A DNA stretch of 44,000 nt from Pseudomonadota bacterium (GTDB lineage Bacteria; Myxococcota_A; UBA796; SXON01): the NCBI GenBank assembly GCA_005778355.1, contig SXON01000042.1, forward strand, positions 1 through 44,000, given 5' to 3'. Positions 35,256 through 44,000 of this stretch are shown here, piece after piece. The translations under genes were made by a program, and so were the position numbers. Below the pieces are notes generated by a model. That model was not told where the DNA came from and made no database searches. It saw only the letters and a list, made by a program, of their open reading frames with translations. Within the stretch, counting starts at the first letter, position 1, and each line of letters begins with the position of its first letter.

Positions 35256-35732
35256 TCACGGAGGCTGGCAGGTCACCGTCGCGAGCATGCCAGCGGTCAG
35301 GCCATCCTTCGAAGCCTCGAACCCCGCCCCGGAGCTGCGAAAGATCGGGCCGTTCCCCGATGGAACGAAGGCGGTCACGAGACACTCTGGACAGCTCAGC
35401 GTGGCCCAGGCGGAAAATCGTTCGATGTCGACCGCATAGCCGTGCCCACAGGGCACGTACGACTGCCCTTCCGCTCCACTCGCAGAGTCGTCATCCGCCC
35501 CTCTCGGCGATTGAACGGCATCATCGTCGCACCAGTCCCCCCCGCAATCGTCGCAGCTCACCACCAGCCTTCGCGCATCGGTGACCACGCCGGCGCCGGA
35601 GTAGAGGTAGCATACGGACGGAGTCTCGCCGGAAAGGCACATTTCTCTAGCCCGGACGTGAAATCGATCCTCGGCGTTCGGACACGGACCCGGCTCGAAG
35701 CAGGCGATAAGGAGCAGCGTCCACGGCGCCAT
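35256..35732 (-). CDS. Cys-rich lipoprotein of unknown function
   Basis: A 158-residue protein from ATG 35732, with signal MAPWTLLLIAC (lipid Cys at 11). It has about a dozen Cys, including SCDDCGGDWC and SCPECL, which could bind metal or form disulfides, and a central Asp/Ser-rich loop (GADDDSASGAEG). An ATG at 35777 inside the end of the upstream gene has a better ribosome site (GAGAAG) and would add 15 basic residues before the same hydrophobic core. The upstream large protein also carries Cys clusters. No family is recognised. Confidence 0.55.
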   Translation of the reverse strand: MAPWTLLLIACFEPGPCPNAEDRFHVRAREMCLSGETPSVCYLYSGAGVVTDARRLVVSCDDCGGDWCDDDAVQSPRGADDDSASGAEGQSYVPCGHGYAVDIERFSAWATLSCPECLVTAFVPSGNGPIFRSSGAGFEASKDGLTAGMLATVTCQPP

Positions 35733-35763
35733 CGAAAGGCATCGCCCCAGCGTCCGAGCCCGG

Positions 35764-38700
35764 TCACACGTTGACATCGGGCTTCTCGACATCGTCGGTC
35801 GGTATGTCCGGCATCCGGCCGGGGTCAAACGGGCTGGGGAAATCGAAGTCTCCCGAGAACGGCCCACGATCGGCGCCCCCGCCGCCGTCGTCGCCGCCCA
35901 CGCAGCAACAGCCGCCGTAGCCGTCCGGGGGCGACGACGGCCAACACGGGGTGCTCTCGGCTGTGCCCCCGCAGTCGGCGTTCCGATTGAGCACGCAACA
36001 GAAGGTCACGTTGCCGTCCATCTCGAGCGGCCGGTCGATACTGAAGAAAAGATCGCCGAAGTGGCCGGTCTTGGTGAGCTCGTCGGCGAGCCACAGGCTC
36101 AGCATGGAGAGGCCGGCGAGTTCGGCCGCGGTCGCCACGTCAAGTGACAGTAGCTCCCAGCCAGCAGCCACCGCGAGGGCGGCTCCGGTCACCTGGAGGG
36201 CCGTCCTCACCGTCGGCGCGACATTACCACCCACCACGCCCCCCTGGATACACTCGATCACTCCCTGGTGGAAATAGGGTTGGAACTGCGATCCCGCTCC
36301 GGTCGCACCGGCCGAGCTGGTGCCGCCGGTCTGGAAGGCGCGCGCGATGGCACCCCCTGTCTGCGCCACGGCGCGGGTGCAGATCTCGCGAGTAGAGAAT
36401 CCTCGCGACGACTGGATCTGTCCCAGGTCCGGATGCCAGTAGACATCGCTATCCACCGGATCGCCCGAGTTTGAGACCGCGAAATAGTGATAGATCCCAG
36501 GCAATCCCAGCCGCGCGGTCACAAACCTCGCCCACACCTGCCCTGCCACGTCCTGCACGCAACCCATGCTTCCCTCGGGGCCACCGCCACAGTGCCAGAG
36601 CCCGAAGTTGTGGGCGGTCTCGTGAATGACCATCGCCGCGAACTCCACGACCACCGACATGGCCATGCGCAAGCAGAAGTTAGCGGCCTCCAGTTGGCGG
36701 GCCAGCTCGTCACCTTGGGCGAAGTCTTCGCTCGTGGGGGCCACCGCCTTGCAGTAGTGCCGGGTGGCCAAGGCCACGAACCAGTCGAACATGATCGAGG
36801 CGCGGTCGAGCCGGGTGGAGCACACCCACACCCGGGTGCCATACGGATAGAGCGTGACGTCCGGGCCGAAGCTGGCCACGACCCCGTGGTTGGCCGTCGA
36901 CTGGCCTGGCGAGACGGTGGAGTCAAAGTCGAACGTGAAGGTGATCGTGTCCCGCAAGTCGACCACCTGGGCGGGGCCGAGGTCGGCGCAGCTCGCCCAG
37001 GCGGCGCCCAGCGTCGACACGAGCGACACGGACGTGGGCCGCGTCGCGAAGGACGCGGCCGGCGTACCGCCCCCGGAGCCAGCCGTGCTGGCGCCGCCGC
37101 CCCCGCCAAAGGTGTCCGGCAAGGTTGTGACGGTAAAATCCCCCGGGGCCGAACAGTTCACGGGCCGGATAAGTGCCTCCACCACCATCTCCTCGAGGTC
37201 GGCGGCGAAGCGCGCGATGAAGCTTATGAGCTCCGCGATCGCCTCCGCCAGCTCCTCGATCGCCTCCACCAGCGACACCACCAGGTCGCCGAGCGCCGAC
37301 AAGCTGCCAAGAATGGAGGACCCCAGTTCCACGAGCGCCTCTCCCAGCGCTTCGGCGAGGTCGGCCAGGGGCTTGATCACCGCCTCCCAGTCGATCTCCT
37401 CCCCAGACACCAGTGCGTCGACCAGCTCGATGAAGAACTGGATGAGCGTGCCAAGGGCAGCACCGGGGAGGGCCGCGATCAGGAGGAGCACAACCGCAGC
37501 GTCACCCATCAACTCCGCGACCTCTTCCCCAAGGCGATCCACGCGCTTGCCCAGCTCTTCCACCGACTCCACCAGCTCCGCGAACTCCTCGATGAGCTCG
37601 GCGCCGCCCGGCATGTCGCCCGGCTCGTAGATCCGGAAGTCCATGGCACCGGACTCGATCGCGTCGATCACCGCTTTCCGGGGCGTCCACCCCTCCCACT
37701 CCCTCGGCATCCCCTCGCCGAAGTCACAGATGGTCTGGAGCACCCGCGACATGAACTTCAGGCGGGGGTCGTAGGAAACGCTCGGGGTGTACCCCGACCG
37801 GCTCTTGGACCACTGGTACCACAGCGGCTCCTCTTCCCGCGGGGCGATGTTGTCTTCGAGTGCCTCGTCCACCGCGCCGAGCCCGATCAGCGCCCAGAGG
37901 CCATCCTCCCAGTCCTCCCCCGTGGCGTCGTCCTCCATCGAGCGGAGCAGGTTCGCGGCGGCGTCGTAGGTGAGCGTGCCCTCGATGCAGGCCACGAAGT
38001 CGGTCGCGGTCCAGTCCGTCAACCGCTCGTTGGGGCAGGGTTGACCCGAGGGATCGCCCGTCCGCGTCCAGCGGCGGTACTGGTAAGCCCGCGTGCCCTC
38101 GGCCGAGGGCGCCTCGAACCCCGAGGACACGCCGAGCGTGGCCGGGTCGATCGTGGCCAGCTTCAACACGAGAGAACGAGCCCGCTCGCGGTAGGCCCCG
38201 ATCGCCTCGCTGGCCTCGCCGAGCCGCTGGGCGAGGACCGCCTGGTCGACACCCGTATCGCCCGTGGAGTGGCGAACCCGGGGCACGCCGGACAGCGCCT
38301 CGTGGAAGGCGGCCGCGATCCGCGTGCCACAACCTCTCGGCTCGCGACGGTGCTCGGGCTCGGCGCCCAGGGGCACGGTAAGGAGCTGCGCCCACTCCGC
38401 CTCCACCAGCTCGTGGTCCCGGCGCGTGCCCAGGTCGGCACGAGAGAAACGCGTCGCACCGAGGCCCGGGATGGGGGGAACCCCCTTGACCTGCAAGGGG
38501 ACGGATCCAGCGGGCGGTGGCCTCTGGCGAGCACGTTCAGATTCGCGCAGCTCGCCGAGGAACTTGCGCACCTGCACGCGGGCACGCACTCGGCGGTCGC
38601 GCGGACGCTCCGGTGCGGACTCGCCCTGCCCCGGCCCGTGGCCGCCGCAACCGTTCGCCGAGAGGGGCGAGCGAACTTCCGACTTCTCGCGCGCCGCCGG

Positions 38701-38808
38701 GGGTCGGCGCCGGGCGCGAGCACTCGTGCCCTGGCAGCCGCAGGCGCCGCCGCCGCCGCACCGGCCGCCGCACCCGCAATCGCCGCCCTTGCAACCGCCG
38801 TCTGCCAT
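35764..38808 (-). CDS. Large leaderless Cys/Gly-rich protein with metzincin-type zinc site
   Basis: A 1014-residue protein with no signal peptide. The first 27 residues are a Cys/Gly cluster (CKGGDCGCGGRC, then GACGC), followed by an Arg/Pro-rich basic stretch. Residues 400-550 are long amphipathic, partly hydrophobic helices rich in Glu, Ala and Leu (ELAEAIAELISFIARF). Residues 729-739 read HETAHNFGLWH, the exact HExxHxxGxxH of metzincins, with SMGC shortly after as a possible Met-turn. A second Cys cluster lies near the C-terminus (GGCCCVGGDDGGGG). It starts 6 bp after a small gene, in frame with it. It is probably a protease exported or delivered by an unseen machine. The protein as a whole matches nothing I recognise. 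Confidence 0.75.
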   Translation of the reverse strand: MADGGCKGGDCGCGGRCGGGGACGCQGTSARARRRPPAAREKSEVRSPLSANGCGGHGPGQGESAPERPRDRRVRARVQVRKFLGELRESERARQRPPPAGSVPLQVKGVPPIPGLGATRFSRADLGTRRDHELVEAEWAQLLTVPLGAEPEHRREPRGCGTRIAAAFHEALSGVPRVRHSTGDTGVDQAVLAQRLGEASEAIGAYRERARSLVLKLATIDPATLGVSSGFEAPSAEGTRAYQYRRWTRTGDPSGQPCPNERLTDWTATDFVACIEGTLTYDAAANLLRSMEDDATGEDWEDGLWALIGLGAVDEALEDNIAPREEEPLWYQWSKSRSGYTPSVSYDPRLKFMSRVLQTICDFGEGMPREWEGWTPRKAVIDAIESGAMDFRIYEPGDMPGGAELIEEFAELVESVEELGKRVDRLGEEVAELMGDAAVVLLLIAALPGAALGTLIQFFIELVDALVSGEEIDWEAVIKPLADLAEALGEALVELGSSILGSLSALGDLVVSLVEAIEELAEAIAELISFIARFAADLEEMVVEALIRPVNCSAPGDFTVTTLPDTFGGGGGASTAGSGGGTPAASFATRPTSVSLVSTLGAAWASCADLGPAQVVDLRDTITFTFDFDSTVSPGQSTANHGVVASFGPDVTLYPYGTRVWVCSTRLDRASIMFDWFVALATRHYCKAVAPTSEDFAQGDELARQLEAANFCLRMAMSVVVEFAAMVIHETAHNFGLWHCGGGPEGSMGCVQDVAGQVWARFVTARLGLPGIYHYFAVSNSGDPVDSDVYWHPDLGQIQSSRGFSTREICTRAVAQTGGAIARAFQTGGTSSAGATGAGSQFQPYFHQGVIECIQGGVVGGNVAPTVRTALQVTGAALAVAAGWELLSLDVATAAELAGLSMLSLWLADELTKTGHFGDLFFSIDRPLEMDGNVTFCCVLNRNADCGGTAESTPCWPSSPPDGYGGCCCVGGDDGGGGADRGPFSGDFDFPSPFDPGRMPDIPTDDVEKPDVNV

Positions 38809-38814
38809 CGTCGC

Positions 38815-39246
38815 CTACTGCAAGTAGATGGCAGTGTAGCAGACTTCCACCTCGACCCAGGTCGTGGCGTTGCCGCTCACCAGCATCGCGACGTCGAGCA
38901 GGCCCATGCCCGGGGTGTACGACACCGCGCCGTCGTCGGGGACCGCGGTCATGTTGGTGGCGTTCCACCGCAGCGAGGGCGAGGCCGCGTCGGTGGCGGA
39001 GACGGTGAACTTCCGCAGCCCGTCACGGGGGAGCTGGTCGGGCAGGCAACCGTGGCTCACGTCGAAGTCGATGGAGGGCGAGCCAGCGCCCGAGCGATCG
39101 TACACCCGCGCATGCAGCCACACCTTGTCGGCCGCGCCGAGCAAGGCAGCCATCTTCGACCGGTCGGCCGGGAAGTAGACTGCGGGTTGCGTGCCGCCCA
39201 GGTAGCGGCTGCGCTTGAGTAGAACTCCGGTGACCTTTCGTGCCAT
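38815..39246 (-). CDS. Small beta-rich protein upstream of the metzincin-like gene (module A)
   Basis: A 143-residue protein starting at ATG 39246 with GAGG six bases upstream. It opens MARKVTGVLLKRSRYLGG, then alternates strand-like segments (KVWLHARVYDRSG, SPSIDFDVSHG, TTWVEVEVCYTAIYLQ), suggesting a small beta sandwich. No signal peptide or membrane segment is seen. Its TAG is in frame with, and 6 bp before, the start of the Cys/Gly-rich gene. Its general plan resembles the small gene at 42740, which also precedes a Cys/Gly-rich gene. The function is unknown. Confidence 0.65.
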   Translation of the reverse strand: MARKVTGVLLKRSRYLGGTQPAVYFPADRSKMAALLGAADKVWLHARVYDRSGAGSPSIDFDVSHGCLPDQLPRDGLRKFTVSATDAASPSLRWNATNMTAVPDDGAVSYTPGMGLLDVAMLVSGNATTWVEVEVCYTAIYLQ

Positions 39247-39300
39247 TGATTGCCTCAAGTTGCGGCGGGAGGGTAGCGCATCCATCGGCACTTGAGTCGC

Positions 39301-39333
39301 AAAAAAAACAGTTCGTTGCGTGGTGATTCACGC
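39301..39333 (-). terminator. Hairpin followed by a T8 run (leftward terminator)
   Basis: On the minus strand GCGTG AATCAC CACGC (39333-39318) is followed, after nine bases, by eight Ts (39308-39301). It would end transcription of the leftward Uma2 gene before the module A genes. The stem is short and the distance to the Ts is long for an intrinsic terminator. The rest of the 142-bp gap holds a GTCGCGAC site at 39342. Confidence 0.4.
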
Positions 39334-39388
39334 TACAATTTGTCGCGACGCACGGACATTTGAACGGGGCACGATGTCCCCGCTCCGT

Positions 39389-39967
39389 CTACCCCTCGAT
39401 CCCAAACAGTCGCCCCACGTCGATCTCCACCTCGACGAAGGGCGGCGCCGCCACGGTTTCGCCCGGGCTCCCGGTGAGCACCAGCTCGTAGGCGCGATCA
39501 CCACGGGCATACACGTAGAGGAGCTGGTTCTGGCGGTCGATCACCCAGTAGTGGCCCACGCCGTGCTGGTAGTAGGCGCGCATCTTGACGCCGAGATCGC
39601 GGGCGGCCGTGCTCGCGGAGAGCACCTCGGTCACCCAGTCCGGGGCCACCGGGACCGGCCACGCGCTCGGCATCACCGGCACGCGCTCGCGACGCCAACC
39701 GGCGATGTCCGGGCAGACGACCATCTCGCCCAGGGCGACATGGACCTCGGTGCGGATCCACCAGCCGCCGGGACCGCCCTGGCCACCGCGCCGGTTGTAG
39801 GGTGCATGCACCCGCCCGACCACCTCGCTCTGAGCCCCCCCATGGCCCTCGTCGGCGGCGGCCTTCTCCACCATCACCCCGTCGATGATCTCGCAGCGCC
39901 GTTCCTCGTGGATCGCTCGCAGCAGATCATCGAGGGTCGCGACGCGGAGGGCGGGTTCGCCGGGCAT
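39389..39967 (-). CDS. Uma2-family (DUF820) putative endonuclease
   Basis: A 192-residue protein of the Uma2 family, a PD-(D/E)xK-type nuclease fold. It shows YEI-like CEIIDGVMVEKAA at the N-terminus, the acidic VCPDIAGWRRER core, WVTEVLSAST with the catalytic-type Glu, and DLGVKMRAYYQHGVGHYWVIDRQNQLLYVY, the usual 'K..Y...GV.EYWivD' block. The biological role of Uma2 proteins is poorly known. It is isolated, divergent from hpt across a 358-bp gap with palindromic repeats, and upstream of the module A genes. Confidence 0.85.
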   Translation of the reverse strand: MPGEPALRVATLDDLLRAIHEERRCEIIDGVMVEKAAADEGHGGAQSEVVGRVHAPYNRRGGQGGPGGWWIRTEVHVALGEMVVCPDIAGWRRERVPVMPSAWPVPVAPDWVTEVLSASTAARDLGVKMRAYYQHGVGHYWVIDRQNQLLYVYARGDRAYELVLTGSPGETVAAPPFVEVEIDVGRLFGIEG

Positions 39968-40174
39968 GGCGGGAAGTATACCGCACCACCGAGCGCGGTC
40001 GCCCCCAGGCGAATCCCGTGGCGACCGCGGGGTGACGACGTGGCGCTACGGGTTCTCGGCGAGAACCTCGTTCGCGGGGCGCAATGGAAACCACATCTTG
40101 TCGCGACACCTCAGCAACAGCTCAACGGGACTCGACGGTCCCGCAGGCTTACGGCCGCGCCGACGGCCCTGCGC

Positions 40175-40218
40175 GGCAACAAGTCCCCCGAACCCCTCGG
40201 TCCCCTCGACTTGTTGCC
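40175..40218. repeat. 44-bp palindromic repeat, copy 1
   Basis: Perfect 11-bp arms GGCAACAAGTC and GACTTGTTGCC enclose a 22-base C-rich centre with an inner CCGA/TCGG pair. It lies in the 358-bp gap (39968-40325) between Uma2 and hpt. That gap otherwise holds a GTCGCGAC site (40100) and no convincing gene. On the minus strand the centre has three G runs of four or five. The layout is that of REP-like intergenic repeats. Confidence 0.85.
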
Positions 40219-40236
40219 GCAATCCCGCCACCTTCC

Positions 40237-40280
40237 GGCAACAAGTCCCCCGAACCCCGGGGTCCCCCCGACTTGTTGCC
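40237..40280. repeat. 44-bp palindromic repeat, copy 2
   Basis: A second copy with identical 11-bp arms and a slightly diverged 22-base centre, 18 bp after copy 1 and in the same orientation. Arms are conserved while centres differ, which suggests selection on the stem. The end is 45 bp before the hpt start, so a transcript of either strand would form two tandem hairpins. Confidence 0.85.
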
Positions 40281-40325
40281 ACCACCCGACCCGCCGTCGT
40301 CCCGCCATGACGATACACCCCACCG

Positions 40326-40847
40326 ATGAAAGCCCTCGTCACCGAGCAGCAGATCGCCGAGCGCCTCCCCGCCCTCGCGGCCGAGATCGCCACCCAGTGG
40401 CCCCGTCCCGAGCGCCTAGTATTGGTTGGCCCGCTCAAGGGGTGTGTCATCTTCATGGCCGACCTGTCCCGCGCGCTCTGGCGAGTGGGTGTGCCCCACG
40501 ACATGGACTTCCTCCGCGTGTCCTCCTACGGCGCGGGCACCGAGTCAACCGGGGTGCTCCGCCTGGAGAGCGACCTTTACCACCCGGTGGAGGGTCGCGA
40601 CGTGTTGCTCGTCGATGACATCTGCGACAGCGGGCGAACGATGGACTTCGTGTCGCGACATGTCGCCGCGAAGGGTGCCCGCGCCGTGCGCACGGCGGTA
40701 CTGATGGACAAGCCCTCCCGCCGCGCGCTCCCCTTCGCCGTCGACCACGTGGGCTTCACCATCCCCAACGCCTTCGTCGTGGGCTACGGCTGCGACCTCG
40801 CCGAGGGCTACCGTGCGCTGCCGTACGTGGGGATCTACGAGGGCTAG
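40326..40847 (+). CDS. hpt: Hypoxanthine phosphoribosyltransferase
   Basis: A 173-residue purine salvage enzyme transferring phosphoribosyl from PRPP to hypoxanthine or guanine. The flavodoxin-like start VLVGPLKGCVIFMADLSRAL, the MDFLRVSSYG segment, the PRPP loop VLLVDDICDSGRTM (about 93-106) and the late FVVGYGCDLAEGYRALPYVGIYE with the base-binding residues are all typical. Its length fits the family. It follows the palindromic repeats and precedes a metallopeptidase gene by 50 bp. Confidence 0.93.
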   Translation: MKALVTEQQIAERLPALAAEIATQWPRPERLVLVGPLKGCVIFMADLSRALWRVGVPHDMDFLRVSSYGAGTESTGVLRLESDLYHPVEGRDVLLVDDICDSGRTMDFVSRHVAAKGARAVRTAVLMDKPSRRALPFAVDHVGFTIPNAFVVGYGCDLAEGYRALPYVGIYEG

Positions 40848-40897
40848 GGCCCCCTCCACGGCAAGGGGCTACATTCCCCGCGCCCCCGGAGCCGCCC

Positions 40898-42508
40898 TTG
40901 TTCCTGCTCTCCCTCCTCCTCGCCTGCAACGGCAGCGGCGCCGACGTGCTCGCGCCGGTCGACGCCCGCTATTCCGACATCATGTTGAGCCTCGGCGCCG
41001 CCGACCGCGACACCACCCGCAACGTGCACAACAAGGACGCGCGCCGTCGTAAGGCGGAGGCCGAGGGCGACAAGGTCGAGTTCTTCCGCGACGACAAGGT
41101 GAAGGCCGCCATCGACGAGGCCGCGAAGGCCGCCGAGGGGACATCCCTGCGGGTGCGCGGCGAGCACTACGCGCGGCAGGCCATGGTCAACCGCGCGTGG
41201 ACCGAGGCCGACAAGGCCGAGGAAACCCGACTGCTCGGCGTGCTCGACGAGGCGCAGTCGGCCACGGCGGAGTGGTTCTCGCCCGACGGGCACAAGTTCG
41301 TGCTCGACCGCGCGTGGGACGAGGTGAGCAAGGAAGCTGACACGCTGGCCGACGCGCAGCGTCAGGAGCTCGCCCGCGCCTTCGTGAACCACCGCATGCG
41401 CCTCGCCGGGGGCGAACTGCAAGCCCTGGTGAAGCTGCGCAACGAGGTGGCCAAACGCGCGGGGCACGACAACTACTACAAGCTGTCACTGGCGGCCCAG
41501 GGCATCGAGGAGAAAGACCTCGAGGCGGTGATCGGCGAGATGGAGGCGGTGGTGAAGCCCGGCTACGAGGCCGACCGCGCCGCGATCGCCGCCACCGGCG
41601 AGGCCGACGACTTCGCCAACCACCCGCGCCTGCGCCGCCTCGCCAAGCTCGACGCCGACCGCGACCGCGCCGAGAGTTATTTCGACGGCGACCTCGCCGA
41701 AGATCGCATCGTCACCGCCTACCGCGACATGGGTTTTGACACCTCCACGCTCCAACTCTACACCGGGCCCTCCCGCGTGGTGCGCCCCGGTGTGTACGGA
41801 TTCGCCGTCCAGCCGCCGCAGTTCGTGGCGATCGTGCTCAGCGTGGATGAGCGCTGGTCGGCCTGGCCCTACGAGGCCCTGATCCACGAGCTCGGCCACG
41901 CCGTGTGGTGGATGAACCTCAGCCCCGAGGCGGCCAAGAGCCCGGCCACCTGGGAACCGGACGCCCCCTGGTTCGAGGGCTATGCGCAGCTCTTCGAGCG
42001 GGTGCTCGCCGAGCCCGCGTTTACCGCGAAGTATGTGCCCGAACTGCCGGAGGGCGACCGTGCCGCCTTCCGGAGCGCGAGGGTGCGCGAGGTGGCCGAC
42101 GGCATCGTCGACGCGATTGTCACCACCCGCGCCGAGCGCCGATTGTACGAGAACCCCGACGACCTCGCCGGGGCCTTCCAGGTGGCGATCGACACCCGCG
42201 CCGCGCTCACCGGCTCGCCCCTGCCCCCGGCCGACGGCTCCGCCTACGACCCGGCGCTGCTGAGCGGCCTCGCCTGGCACTACCCGGCGTATAGCCCCAA
42301 CTACCTCTACGCCTACATGACCGAGGCGCGGCTCTGGGAGGCGGTGACCAAGAACGTGGGCGACCCGGTGGCCAACCCGAAGCTCGCGCCTTTCCTGGTG
42401 GACAAGCTCGTGCGCCAGCCGGTCACGACCCCCTTCGCGGCGCGGCTCGACGCCATCGCCCCCGGCGACCGGGCGGCCCCGCTCAAGGCGTACCTGGGCG
42501 GCGGTTGA
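40898..42508 (+). CDS. Lipoprotein zinc metallopeptidase, M2/M3-like gluzincin
   Basis: A 536-residue protein. TTG 40898 has GGAG six bases upstream and gives the lipoprotein signal MFLLSLLLAC (lipid Cys at 10). The rest is mostly helical. The zinc site is HELGH (330-334), with the third ligand likely Glu360 in PWFEGYAQLFERV, 26 residues on, the spacing of peptidyl-dipeptidase A (M2) and oligopeptidase (M3) enzymes. SPNYLYAYMTEARLWE near the C-terminus fits that fold. It probably trims peptides at the cell envelope. The substrate is unknown. Confidence 0.82.
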   Translation: MFLLSLLLACNGSGADVLAPVDARYSDIMLSLGAADRDTTRNVHNKDARRRKAEAEGDKVEFFRDDKVKAAIDEAAKAAEGTSLRVRGEHYARQAMVNRAWTEADKAEETRLLGVLDEAQSATAEWFSPDGHKFVLDRAWDEVSKEADTLADAQRQELARAFVNHRMRLAGGELQALVKLRNEVAKRAGHDNYYKLSLAAQGIEEKDLEAVIGEMEAVVKPGYEADRAAIAATGEADDFANHPRLRRLAKLDADRDRAESYFDGDLAEDRIVTAYRDMGFDTSTLQLYTGPSRVVRPGVYGFAVQPPQFVAIVLSVDERWSAWPYEALIHELGHAVWWMNLSPEAAKSPATWEPDAPWFEGYAQLFERVLAEPAFTAKYVPELPEGDRAAFRSARVREVADGIVDAIVTTRAERRLYENPDDLAGAFQVAIDTRAALTGSPLPPADGSAYDPALLSGLAWHYPAYSPNYLYAYMTEARLWEAVTKNVGDPVANPKLAPFLVDKLVRQPVTTPFAARLDAIAPGDRAAPLKAYLGGG

Positions 42509-42577
42509 GCGGGGCAAATCGAAAATCTCCGAACTCTCGTACATCTTTAGTCGCGACCACCCGATCATCACGAGCGG

Positions 42578-42594
42578 TAATGTAGACCACATTA
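42578..42594. promoter_or_regulatory. Inverted repeat TAATGT-N5-ACATTA
   Basis: A perfect 6-bp inverted repeat with a 5-bp centre, in an AT-richer patch of the 231-bp gap before the module B genes. It looks like a dimeric regulator site. The gap also holds two GTCGCGAC sites (42550, 42640) and no other clear gene. Confidence 0.45.
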
Positions 42595-42739
42595 TGCGGC
42601 CTTGCGGGGGGGGTCGGCTTCCGCTTTTGTGTGCTCGTTGTCGCGACACCATCGCGGCATCGCGTTCCAATCACCGCACCCGAGACCCCCGACGCAAGAC
42701 GCCGATCTCTCCGCCTCCCTCGCCCTTGCCGCGCCAAAT

Positions 42740-43147
42740 GTGCTGCTCCTCCCGCTCTTCCGCCGCCGCGCGCTGGTGACAACCGGCACCGCCTTGCAGA
42801 AGAGCTTCGAGGATCTGGATATCCCCCGGTTCCGTCACGCCTTGCCGCGCTGCACGGGCCTCTTCATGATCGGCCTCGTCGAGAACGTGCCTTCGACCGA
42901 GTTCGAGTTCAACGTGGCCTTCTTCTCGGGCTTCGACCGCGACCACCAGCCCGCCACCCCGCTCGACATCGCCGCCTCCGCGATCAACTCGTCGAATACA
43001 CAGGGCGTGCGCTCGGCGGACTACACCAACGTGCAGAACTTCCTGCTCGACTCGCGCCTGCAACTGTGGTGGCGCAACCCCGCCGGCATCAGCGGTGTGA
43101 AGACGGGCGTGGCGAGTGCTATCCTCGGCCAGTACCTGAGCACGTAG
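42740..43147 (+). CDS. Small protein upstream of a Cys/Gly-rich gene (module B)
   Basis: A 135-residue protein, if GTG 42740 is the start. The frame is open upstream from 42602, but no ATG and no good ribosome site are found, so the 5' end is uncertain. It opens VLLLPLFRRRALVTTG, then has strand-like segments (LFMIGLV, FEFNVAFFSGFDRD, RLQLWWRNPAG) and ends SAILGQYLST. The plan resembles the module A small protein. The last bases are TAG GCC then ATG of the next gene, in the same frame. Confidence 0.55.
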   Translation: MLLLPLFRRRALVTTGTALQKSFEDLDIPRFRHALPRCTGLFMIGLVENVPSTEFEFNVAFFSGFDRDHQPATPLDIAASAINSSNTQGVRSADYTNVQNFLLDSRLQLWWRNPAGISGVKTGVASAILGQYLST

Positions 43148-43150
43148 GCC

Positions 43151-44000
43151 ATGCACGGCGCCTTCCAACCCATCGACTGGAGCCAGATCGACGGTGGCGC
43201 GCCGGGGACCGGGTGTGGCTGTGGCGGCTCGTGCGGGTGCGGCAAGCGGGAGTCCGGGTGCGCGGCGAAGCCGTCCCCGAGGCATCCCCAGTTCACCTCT
43301 ATCGCCGCACCGAACCTCGAGGAAGAACCGCCCGAGCGGGAGGATCACCCCGACTGGTTCGAGGGGCCCCGATGGGACGATCTGTTGAGCCTCGACGGGT
43401 TGCACGACCGGGCGGTCGAGCGAGCGGAGAAGAGGGCCAAGGGCGAGAACATCGAGCCGATCTGTCCCGAGGAGCCGCTGGTCGTGGCGTGGGCCCGGCA
43501 TGCCTCGTCGCTGCGTGACGGGTGCCGAATCGACATCGGGAACATGCGCGTGGGCGGTGCGAACGTCTCACTCAGCACGGCCATCCCGAAGGGCTACGAG
43601 CCAAAGACCTCCCGGAAGCAGATGTTCCAGGACTTCCTGGGCGACTACATGGCCGCCAACCGAATGGACTGGGACGACCTCGCCGAGAACATTAGGTCCG
43701 ACGAGACACCCGGGTTCAAGGGCTGCTTCTGGGACTCCGGTGGGGGCATGCTCTACCGCGCCACGCTCCACGCGCTCCAGATCATCGCCTGCACAACCAT
43801 GCCTGCGTCCGTTTCCGCCGGGCTGCGGGATCGCTTCGTGGCGGTGCGCGACAAGGTCCGCGGCGGGACACTCAATGTCGTGCTCAGCGACGACGCGCTC
43901 GGCGGGGACGAGCGATCGGTACTCGTGGCGGGTCCGTCGGGCGAGGTGACCGCCGAGTACATCGGGCCCACGGGGGCGTTGGCTTGGGAAAGAGGTGATA
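43151..44000 (+). CDS. Cys/Gly-rich leaderless protein (module B), 3'-truncated by window edge
   Basis: At least 283 residues, open to the end of the window. It starts MHGAFQPIDWSQIDGG with no signal peptide. Residues 22-31 are a CGCGGSCGCG cluster, followed by Lys/Arg and a Pro/Glu-rich stretch (NLEEEPPEREDHPDW). Further on are CRIDIGNMRVGGANVSLSTAIPKGY and GFKGCFWDSGGGMLYRATLHALQ, with no known domain recognised. The N-terminal cluster matches that of the large module A protein, and it likewise follows a small gene in frame. Any catalytic domain would lie beyond the window. Confidence 0.68.
   Translation, partial: MHGAFQPIDWSQIDGGAPGTGCGCGGSCGCGKRESGCAAKPSPRHPQFTSIAAPNLEEEPPEREDHPDWFEGPRWDDLLSLDGLHDRAVERAEKRAKGENIEPICPEEPLVVAWARHASSLRDGCRIDIGNMRVGGANVSLSTAIPKGYEPKTSRKQMFQDFLGDYMAANRMDWDDLAENIRSDETPGFKGCFWDSGGGMLYRATLHALQIIACTTMPASVSAGLRDRFVAVRDKVRGGTLNVVLSDDALGGDERSVLVAGPSGEVTAEYIGPTGALAWERGD

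Follow-up and report, generated by a model that had tools for sequence, protein, structure and literature searches.

Two gene pairs with the same layout stand in a 44,000-base stretch of DNA from a Pseudomonadota bacterium placed in Myxococcota_A by GTDB, which raises the question of what kind of system such pairs form and how far it extends beyond this locus. The stretch, referred to here as the window, is the entire contig SXON01000042.1 of assembly GCA_005778355.1, a 6.6 Mb draft genome that is 85% complete. In each pair, termed modules A and B, the gene for a small beta-rich protein is followed by that for a longer protein with a Cys-Gly cluster at its N-terminus. Both pairs belong to a multi-copy cassette family consisting of a small beta-rich protein, a leaderless enzyme-like protein that often bears an Asp-Trp (DW)/Cys tag and, usually, a lipoprotein. 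The family is real and recurrent, and is unnamed in the libraries searched.

The open reading frame (ORF) map of the window places both pairs where an earlier reading of the sequence, the original prediction, had located them, with module A on the minus strand and module B on the plus strand. Their features are as follows.

38815..39246, minus strand: module A small beta-rich protein gene (143 aa, family A11)
35764..38808, minus strand: module A long protein gene, leaderless, tagged and metallopeptidase-like (1014 aa, start MADGGCKGGDCGCGGRCGGGGACGC)
38719..38808, minus strand: module A N-terminal Cys-Gly tag, about residues 1-30, read from the sequence
36589..36624, minus strand: HETAHNFGLWHC, a HExxHxxGxxH zinc-site motif followed by Cys, in the module A long protein
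35256..35777, minus strand: module A third gene, a Cys-rich lipoprotein (LLLIAC lipobox by eye) with a 14-nt overlap with the long gene
39301..39308, minus strand: T8 tract, 62 bp before the module A small start
42740..43147, plus strand: module B small protein gene, predicted jelly roll (ORF map, searches and structure model)
43151..44000, plus strand: module B leaderless tagged long protein gene (start MHGAFQPIDWSQIDGGAPGTGCGCGGSCGCG), incomplete at the contig end
43151..43264, plus strand: module B N-terminal tag, a PIDWSQ box and a CGCGGSCGCG box (sequence and tag alignment)
42606..42613, plus strand: G8 tract, 134 bp before the module B small start

The original prediction held that neither long protein has a signal peptide, and the reading frames bear this out. 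An in-frame stop lies 2 codons before the start of the module A long protein and 1 codon before that of module B (open frames of 1016 and 284 aa), so that a signal peptide is impossible in either. The module B frame runs off the contig end at 44000 without a stop; its product has 80% identity with residues 1-281 of the full-length protein P0055, which runs on to HEDVHRDIDPHC. The start of the module B small gene is uncertain and could be GTG 42740 or a GTG/TTG further upstream. None of the four window proteins matched a Pfam or NCBIfam family over the cut-off, in agreement with the original view that no named family with this tag is known.

Recurrence beyond the window was also anticipated, and related cassettes were found in other genomes as well as at many places in the window genome. 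Cassette genes stand at 18 places in the latter, which amount to at least 17 loci since contig C120 and either C102 or C244 may be two halves of one locus. As a single query, the module B small protein gave 10 more matches in its own genome, and a profile of eight own-genome matches (A2) reached 15 places at E up to 10. Three of these matches are weak; judged by their length, their pattern and the ORF that follows, all three look genuine, and close relatives of two of them in genome G312 reach E 4e-19 and 4e-21 against profile A4. Cargo-based and module A searches added window A, C197 and C41. Several of the 18 places are truncated at contig ends, those on C112 and C97 are untagged, and the second copy on C73 has no recognisable cargo. 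With profile A4 (57 rows), members were detected in 22 of 377 genomes from the phylum, 12 from the same family as the window genome, 8 from other families of the order and 2 more distant; about 11 candidates were scored per genome, and the copy numbers are lower bounds. A search of 5.8 billion protein sequences returned 49 proteins, including those of the window genome, none of which has a precomputed Pfam domain. The gap between the small-gene stop and the long-gene start is mostly -4 to +23 bp, and most cassettes have one small gene per long gene.

Many of the long proteins carry the DWSRA-like motif [ILV]DW[SGT]xA and/or a Cys cluster of the form CGCGG, CxC..C or CxCxxCAxxRA at the N-terminus. 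In a 13-sequence tag alignment, four positions hardly vary (one D, the W and two Cys), and Cys 17, 23 and 25 of module A are invariant in a 4-row alignment (A6); the three relatives of the module A long protein all have a Cys-rich N-terminus. The DW box stands without the Cys cluster at L073, L080 and L099. In a lenient scan of frames starting -30 to +150 bp from the small-gene stop, with contig-end small genes excluded, a tag motif was found downstream of 45/67 small genes versus 22/203 control genes, and both motifs downstream of 14/67 versus 0/203. About six of the 45 motif frames look like chance (L039, L097, L140, L143, L153 and L157), and L140 is also among the 14. The proposal of a common N-terminal tag on variable cargo is supported; the tagged gene stands behind a small beta-rich gene, and both window proteins are leaderless. 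In the profile search that the original prediction had suggested, run here on the 22 genomes with 150 candidates scored per genome, all 14 matches with E <1e-6 adjoin a small gene, but 13 of them are the profile's own rows; the one independent match (G312:C89) adjoins a small gene as well. Inspection by eye of a weaker match, G184:C67 (E 2.7e-4), showed a new kind of small gene directly upstream, with an HExxH cargo and, also downstream, a lipoprotein frame of RCC1-like type. The tag region is disordered in the P0055 model, with a predicted local distance difference test score (pLDDT) <50 for residues 1-89. Of the roles that the original prediction had offered as a working idea, delivery is possible, and metal binding and maturation are putative. 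At L081, L085 and L086 (second copy), tag and cargo fall in different frames soon after the tag, and these breaks may be pseudogenes or draft-genome errors.

A Gly-Cys signature is also known from MYXO-CTERM, which in a published description combines a C-terminal GCGC with a transmembrane helix, an Arg cluster and an N-terminal signal peptide (PMC11980579). MYXO-CTERM proteins were found in 6/6 of the cassette-related genomes tested and were absent from 14 control genomes, which makes it likely that the window genome belongs to Myxococcota. Their C-termini score weakly with the tag profile, and in ten family genomes without A4 matches the best tag-profile match (E 0.002) was a MYXO-CTERM-like C-terminus. 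Compared with the MYXO-CTERM features just listed, the cassette tag differs in being N-terminal and in having neither helix, Arg cluster nor signal peptide, the window proteins being leaderless.

Beyond the tag, the cargoes of modules A and B have a HExxH metallopeptidase core in common, that of module B being read from P0055. The two long proteins had been described as not obviously alike outside the tag, but both fall in the HExxH group; cargo of a different kind is found in other cassettes. A second cargo group, A9, has only the tag in common with the HExxH group; comparison of the two profiles detected no similarity apart from a weakly scoring alignment (probability 4.3%) that covers the tag alone. 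The window A cargo has the HExxHxxGxxH motif of metzincin peptidases, from which its relatives deviate in spacing, and its residues H729, E730, H733, H739 and C740 are invariant in alignment A6. Among 20 further long proteins compared with Pfam, nothing exceeded the cut-off apart from one G087 cargo (L094), which matched Pect-lyase_RHGA_epim. Sequence searches of the PDB gave no match with the metallopeptidase profile and one chance-level match with the A9 profile (E 0.85), and the best Foldseek match to a predicted cargo model had an E of 1.5. By eye the A9 cargo could be taken for a GH43-type propeller, an assignment that was rejected after Pfam gave 0 families in 5 members and the PDB search gave no support. 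Outside the tag, the median Cys content of 27 cargoes is 2.1%, compared with 0.8% for 71 control ORFs (P 2e-8).

The small proteins do not form a single family. Three small-protein families occupy the same place in the cassette, and sequence comparison detected no homology between them; the two window proteins are not detectably related (hhalign probability 4.9%), and there are at least three families overall. The module B small protein is confidently predicted to be a jelly roll, its model being a jelly-roll-like sandwich with a pLDDT of 97. Viral capsid jelly rolls are among the closest Foldseek matches to this model, and a BFVD search with it gave a best E of 5.7e-6 to an entry with an uninformative name. 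The 57 small proteins of A4 matched no PHROG at E 0.01 and gave five stray Pfam matches, one member each (E 0.015-0.099), and a PDB sequence search with the small-protein profile found none. Family A11 of module A has relatives in 3 other genomes of the window genome's family (E 1.7e-35 to 5e-8). In G265, one of these precedes a tagged cargo of A9 type (37% identity with C218, E 7e-58), and in the window the same small type precedes a metallopeptidase. Small families and cargo types are shuffled between cassettes. One of the five members of small family A10 (L184, L205, L206, L207 and L208) gave a match at E 2.4e-5 to phrog_5707, a phage family whose function is unknown. At L041 (C97), L139, L155 and L039 (C112), N-terminal extensions of the small protein seem to hold Cys motifs (e.g. 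SDCGCF, NGGCGC, TCGG), and the downstream protein is without a clear tag.

The third gene of the cassette was scored when a lipoprotein-type N-terminus started -30 to +100 bp from the long-gene stop. By this criterion, a lipoprotein gene lies directly downstream in 24/35 cassettes, compared with 28/237 control genes and with 15/69 controls that have a close same-strand neighbour. The 35 cassettes exclude window B (at the contig end), L079, L087, L089, L091, L092, L095, the second C73 copy, C112 and C97, as well as loci fetched after the 377-genome A4 search. The length of the lipoprotein tracks cargo type: lipoproteins of 98-173 aa accompany 11/12 HExxH cargoes, whereas 13/14 of those after other cargo have at least 290 aa. 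RCC1 or FG-GAP repeats occur in 4/5 long lipoproteins scanned.

Sequence repeats are enriched upstream of the small genes. The scan covered up to 250 bp upstream and counted homopolymers of at least 8, repeats of period 2-5 spanning at least 12 bp and 3.5 copies, and repeats of period 6-20 with at least 2.4 copies; these criteria were fixed after the pattern was first seen and then reused on later sets. A repeat was found in 31/46 discovery genes (binomial P 2e-26), in 11/26 held-out genes fetched later (P 2e-7) and, for the eight genes of other small families, in 3/7 with at least 100 bp of upstream sequence (P 0.008). Clean controls away from the modules, drawn from 95 kb that are mostly from the window genome, had repeats in 2/65 genes, 1/27 genes with intergenic upstream sequence and 515/8000 random windows, and P was computed against the highest of these rates, 6.4%. 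Less clean controls within module loci gave 7.9% of random windows, 24/227 genes and 18/103 genes with intergenic upstream sequence, the two gene counts being contaminated in that some control genes share their repeats with small genes and some ORFs are miscalled. Not counted among the 46 discovery genes are L090, C120 and the first copy on C73, whose upstream sequence is short or missing, and C112 and C97, which were recognised later; C97 has a T9 tract upstream and C112 has none.

Besides homopolymers, the repeats include 6-mers and 12-15-mers. Hexamers resembling -35 and -10 elements flank the tract in 8/16 upstream regions (six G/C tracts of 9-11, one G6 and one T11). The tract lies in the spacer of TTGACA-19-TACGCT (L099), TTGACG-19-TAGCCT (L084), TTGACA-15-TAGCCT (L086) and TTGCGG-18/19-TACACT or TACAGT (C229, C244 and C102). 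In the window genome, three upstream regions paralogous to that of module B have G10, G10 and G11 at the position of its G8. By analogy this layout is the anatomy of phase-variable promoters such as that of porA in Neisseria, for which a published account describes a poly-G tract between -35 and -10 (PMC3639595). The poly-G of about 9-11 in the spacer is the point of likeness; unlike porA, the cassettes are many and unlinked and also have 6-mers and 12-15-mer repeats, and switching is here predicted from sequence. Many cassettes are likely turned on and off by the repeats that precede them.

What the cassettes do can be answered only tentatively. The reading we prefer, while granting it rather less than an even chance, is that they are phase-variable adaptor-effector-immunity units composed of a small adaptor, a tagged exported effector and a lipoprotein immunity partner. 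Adaptor-effector-immunity cassettes are a feature of type VI secretion, and the preference rests mainly on the match between such cassettes and the order of small partner, leaderless variable enzyme and exported partner. Slipped-strand changes in the repeats would alter promoter strength or leader length, and each cell would consequently express a subset of cassettes. The small protein would bind the disordered tag and hand the enzyme to a Sec-independent exporter, perhaps a contractile injection system conserved in these genomes, while the Sec-exported lipoprotein would protect the producer from an effector that is presumably toxic.

Several observations weigh against this adaptor-effector-immunity reading. 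Distant members of the family are often untagged, with no motif behind 22/67 small genes (e.g. in G087, G043 and C97). No lipoprotein was scored in 11/35 cassettes, although a looser rule finds one in three of these 11 (window A, L077 and L098); one was scored at +89 bp, and the order is sometimes small gene, RCC1-type lipoprotein, long gene (L087 and L210). The short lipoproteins are mostly unalignable with one another, as expected of immunity proteins, though also of unrelated genes. The pectate-lyase-like G087 cargo would suit digestion rather than toxicity. As a sign of export the Cys richness of the cargoes is weak, since the median Cys content of 13 control lipoprotein ORFs, whose products are by nature exported, is no more than 0.59%. 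By the criterion used, no repeat precedes a third of the discovery genes or over half of the held-out genes, the -35/-10 reading, made without a shuffled control, fails for 8/16 regions including those of both window modules, and tract lengths were seen to differ among paralogues only, not within a strain.

The export route is a further difficulty. VipB/TssC of the type VI secretion system (T6SS; PF05943) was found in 0/30 genomes, with a positive E. coli control. Contractile-sheath genes (PF04984, which does not separate extracellular contractile injection systems (eCIS) from phage tails) are present in 29/30. There is no co-occurrence signal since sheath genes occur in 12/13 genomes without an A4 small-gene match and in 17/17 with one, and no cassette was seen within the 20 kb surrounding the sheath genes of the window genome. 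A contractile injection system as export route is possible but unsupported. Varied cargo loaded through N-terminal signals, reported for eCIS in one study (PMC12923769), is a point of likeness, as are the sheath genes themselves. L160 (G000:C133:3575-7164) has two neighbouring contractile-sheath genes.

The cassettes resemble those of T6SS and polymorphic toxins in having a leaderless effector with a conserved N-terminal marker and a variable C-terminus, a small gene before it and a partner after it. They differ in that VipB is missing from the 30 genomes, no known marker domain was found, and the partners are lipoproteins, large ones after non-protease cargo. A survey of polymorphic toxins describes the immunity genes as invariably adjacent and typically encoding small single-domain proteins, lipoprotein immunity being exceptional (PMC3482391).

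A possible, though less probable, alternative is that the cassettes encode phase-variable surface enzyme complexes, with the lipoprotein as anchor or receptor and the enzyme and jelly roll assembling outside to digest polymers or prey, with no toxin or immunity involved. A Sec-independent step would still be required, the window long proteins being without signal peptides, and the short lipoproteins in 11/12 metallopeptidase cassettes look like an inhibitor pairing. Distinctly unlikely is a cargo-loading compartment, in which the jelly roll would form a shell and the tag would act as a loading peptide for enzymes packaged in the cell, in the manner of an encapsulin but with another fold. Such a compartment would fit the viral capsid jelly rolls among the Foldseek matches, the disorder of the tag and the one-to-one pairing of small and long genes in most cassettes. 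Encapsulin-type compartments have a HK97-fold shell protein, unlike the predicted sandwich of window B. Similarly improbable is that the Cys cluster serves maturation and not delivery, as a modification or metal site (a thioether like that of ribosomally synthesized and post-translationally modified peptides, an iron-sulfur site or a zinc site). Of the four tag positions that hardly vary, two are Cys, and the Gly-Cys pattern recalls peptides modified by radical S-adenosylmethionine enzymes; against this stand the lack of any NCBIfam model over the cut-off for the window long proteins and the three loci at which the DW box has no Cys cluster. The idea that high GC content alone accounts for the repeats and Cys-Gly runs, as low-complexity by-products, deserves hardly any credence, since for all the GC-rich Gly and Cys codons, and the repeats in 6.4% of random windows far from the modules, 7.9% in module loci and 24/227 other genes there, repeats precede only 2/65 clean control genes, both tag motifs follow 0/203, and place and gene order recur across genomes.

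A broader proposal, which we regard as doubtful, is that the adaptor-effector-immunity cassettes represent a new Myxococcota export pathway, in which small beta-sandwich adaptors, interchangeable with one another, recognise the N-terminal DW/Cys tag and route unrelated leaderless enzymes to the outside, and in which repeat-switched promoters let every cell express its own mix out of about twenty effector-immunity cassettes. That mix would be an identity or attack code of a social or predatory bacterium. If these inferences are right, one bacterial family would hold a large switchable arsenal with a tag marking its substrates, made up of families left unnamed by the Pfam, NCBIfam and PDB sequence searches run. 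Exported enzymes could then be listed by tag, and Sec-independent export in these bacteria would become testable. Repeat-driven phase variation, familiar from host-adapted pathogens, would extend to Myxococcota, for which a literature search found no paper combining phase variation, simple sequence repeats and the phylum. Colony-type phase variation is already known there from Myxococcus xanthus, which switches between yellow and tan colonies with many regulated genes; the likeness is switching within myxobacterial populations, and the portion of that account available makes no mention of a sequence repeat (PMC4880591).

Two minor observations concern the DNA as a whole. The palindrome GTCGCGAC occurs in 29 copies in the window, from 1138 to 42640, versus 4.5 expected and a maximum of 10 in 100 shuffles, and so resembles a highly iterated palindrome; copies near promoters were considered as a regulator site, an idea that was dropped because the palindrome is over-represented throughout the window. 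Contigs C11, C120, C102, C244, C73, C130 and C151 start or stop in or beside a cassette, as if near-identical cassette copies break the draft assembly at contig ends.

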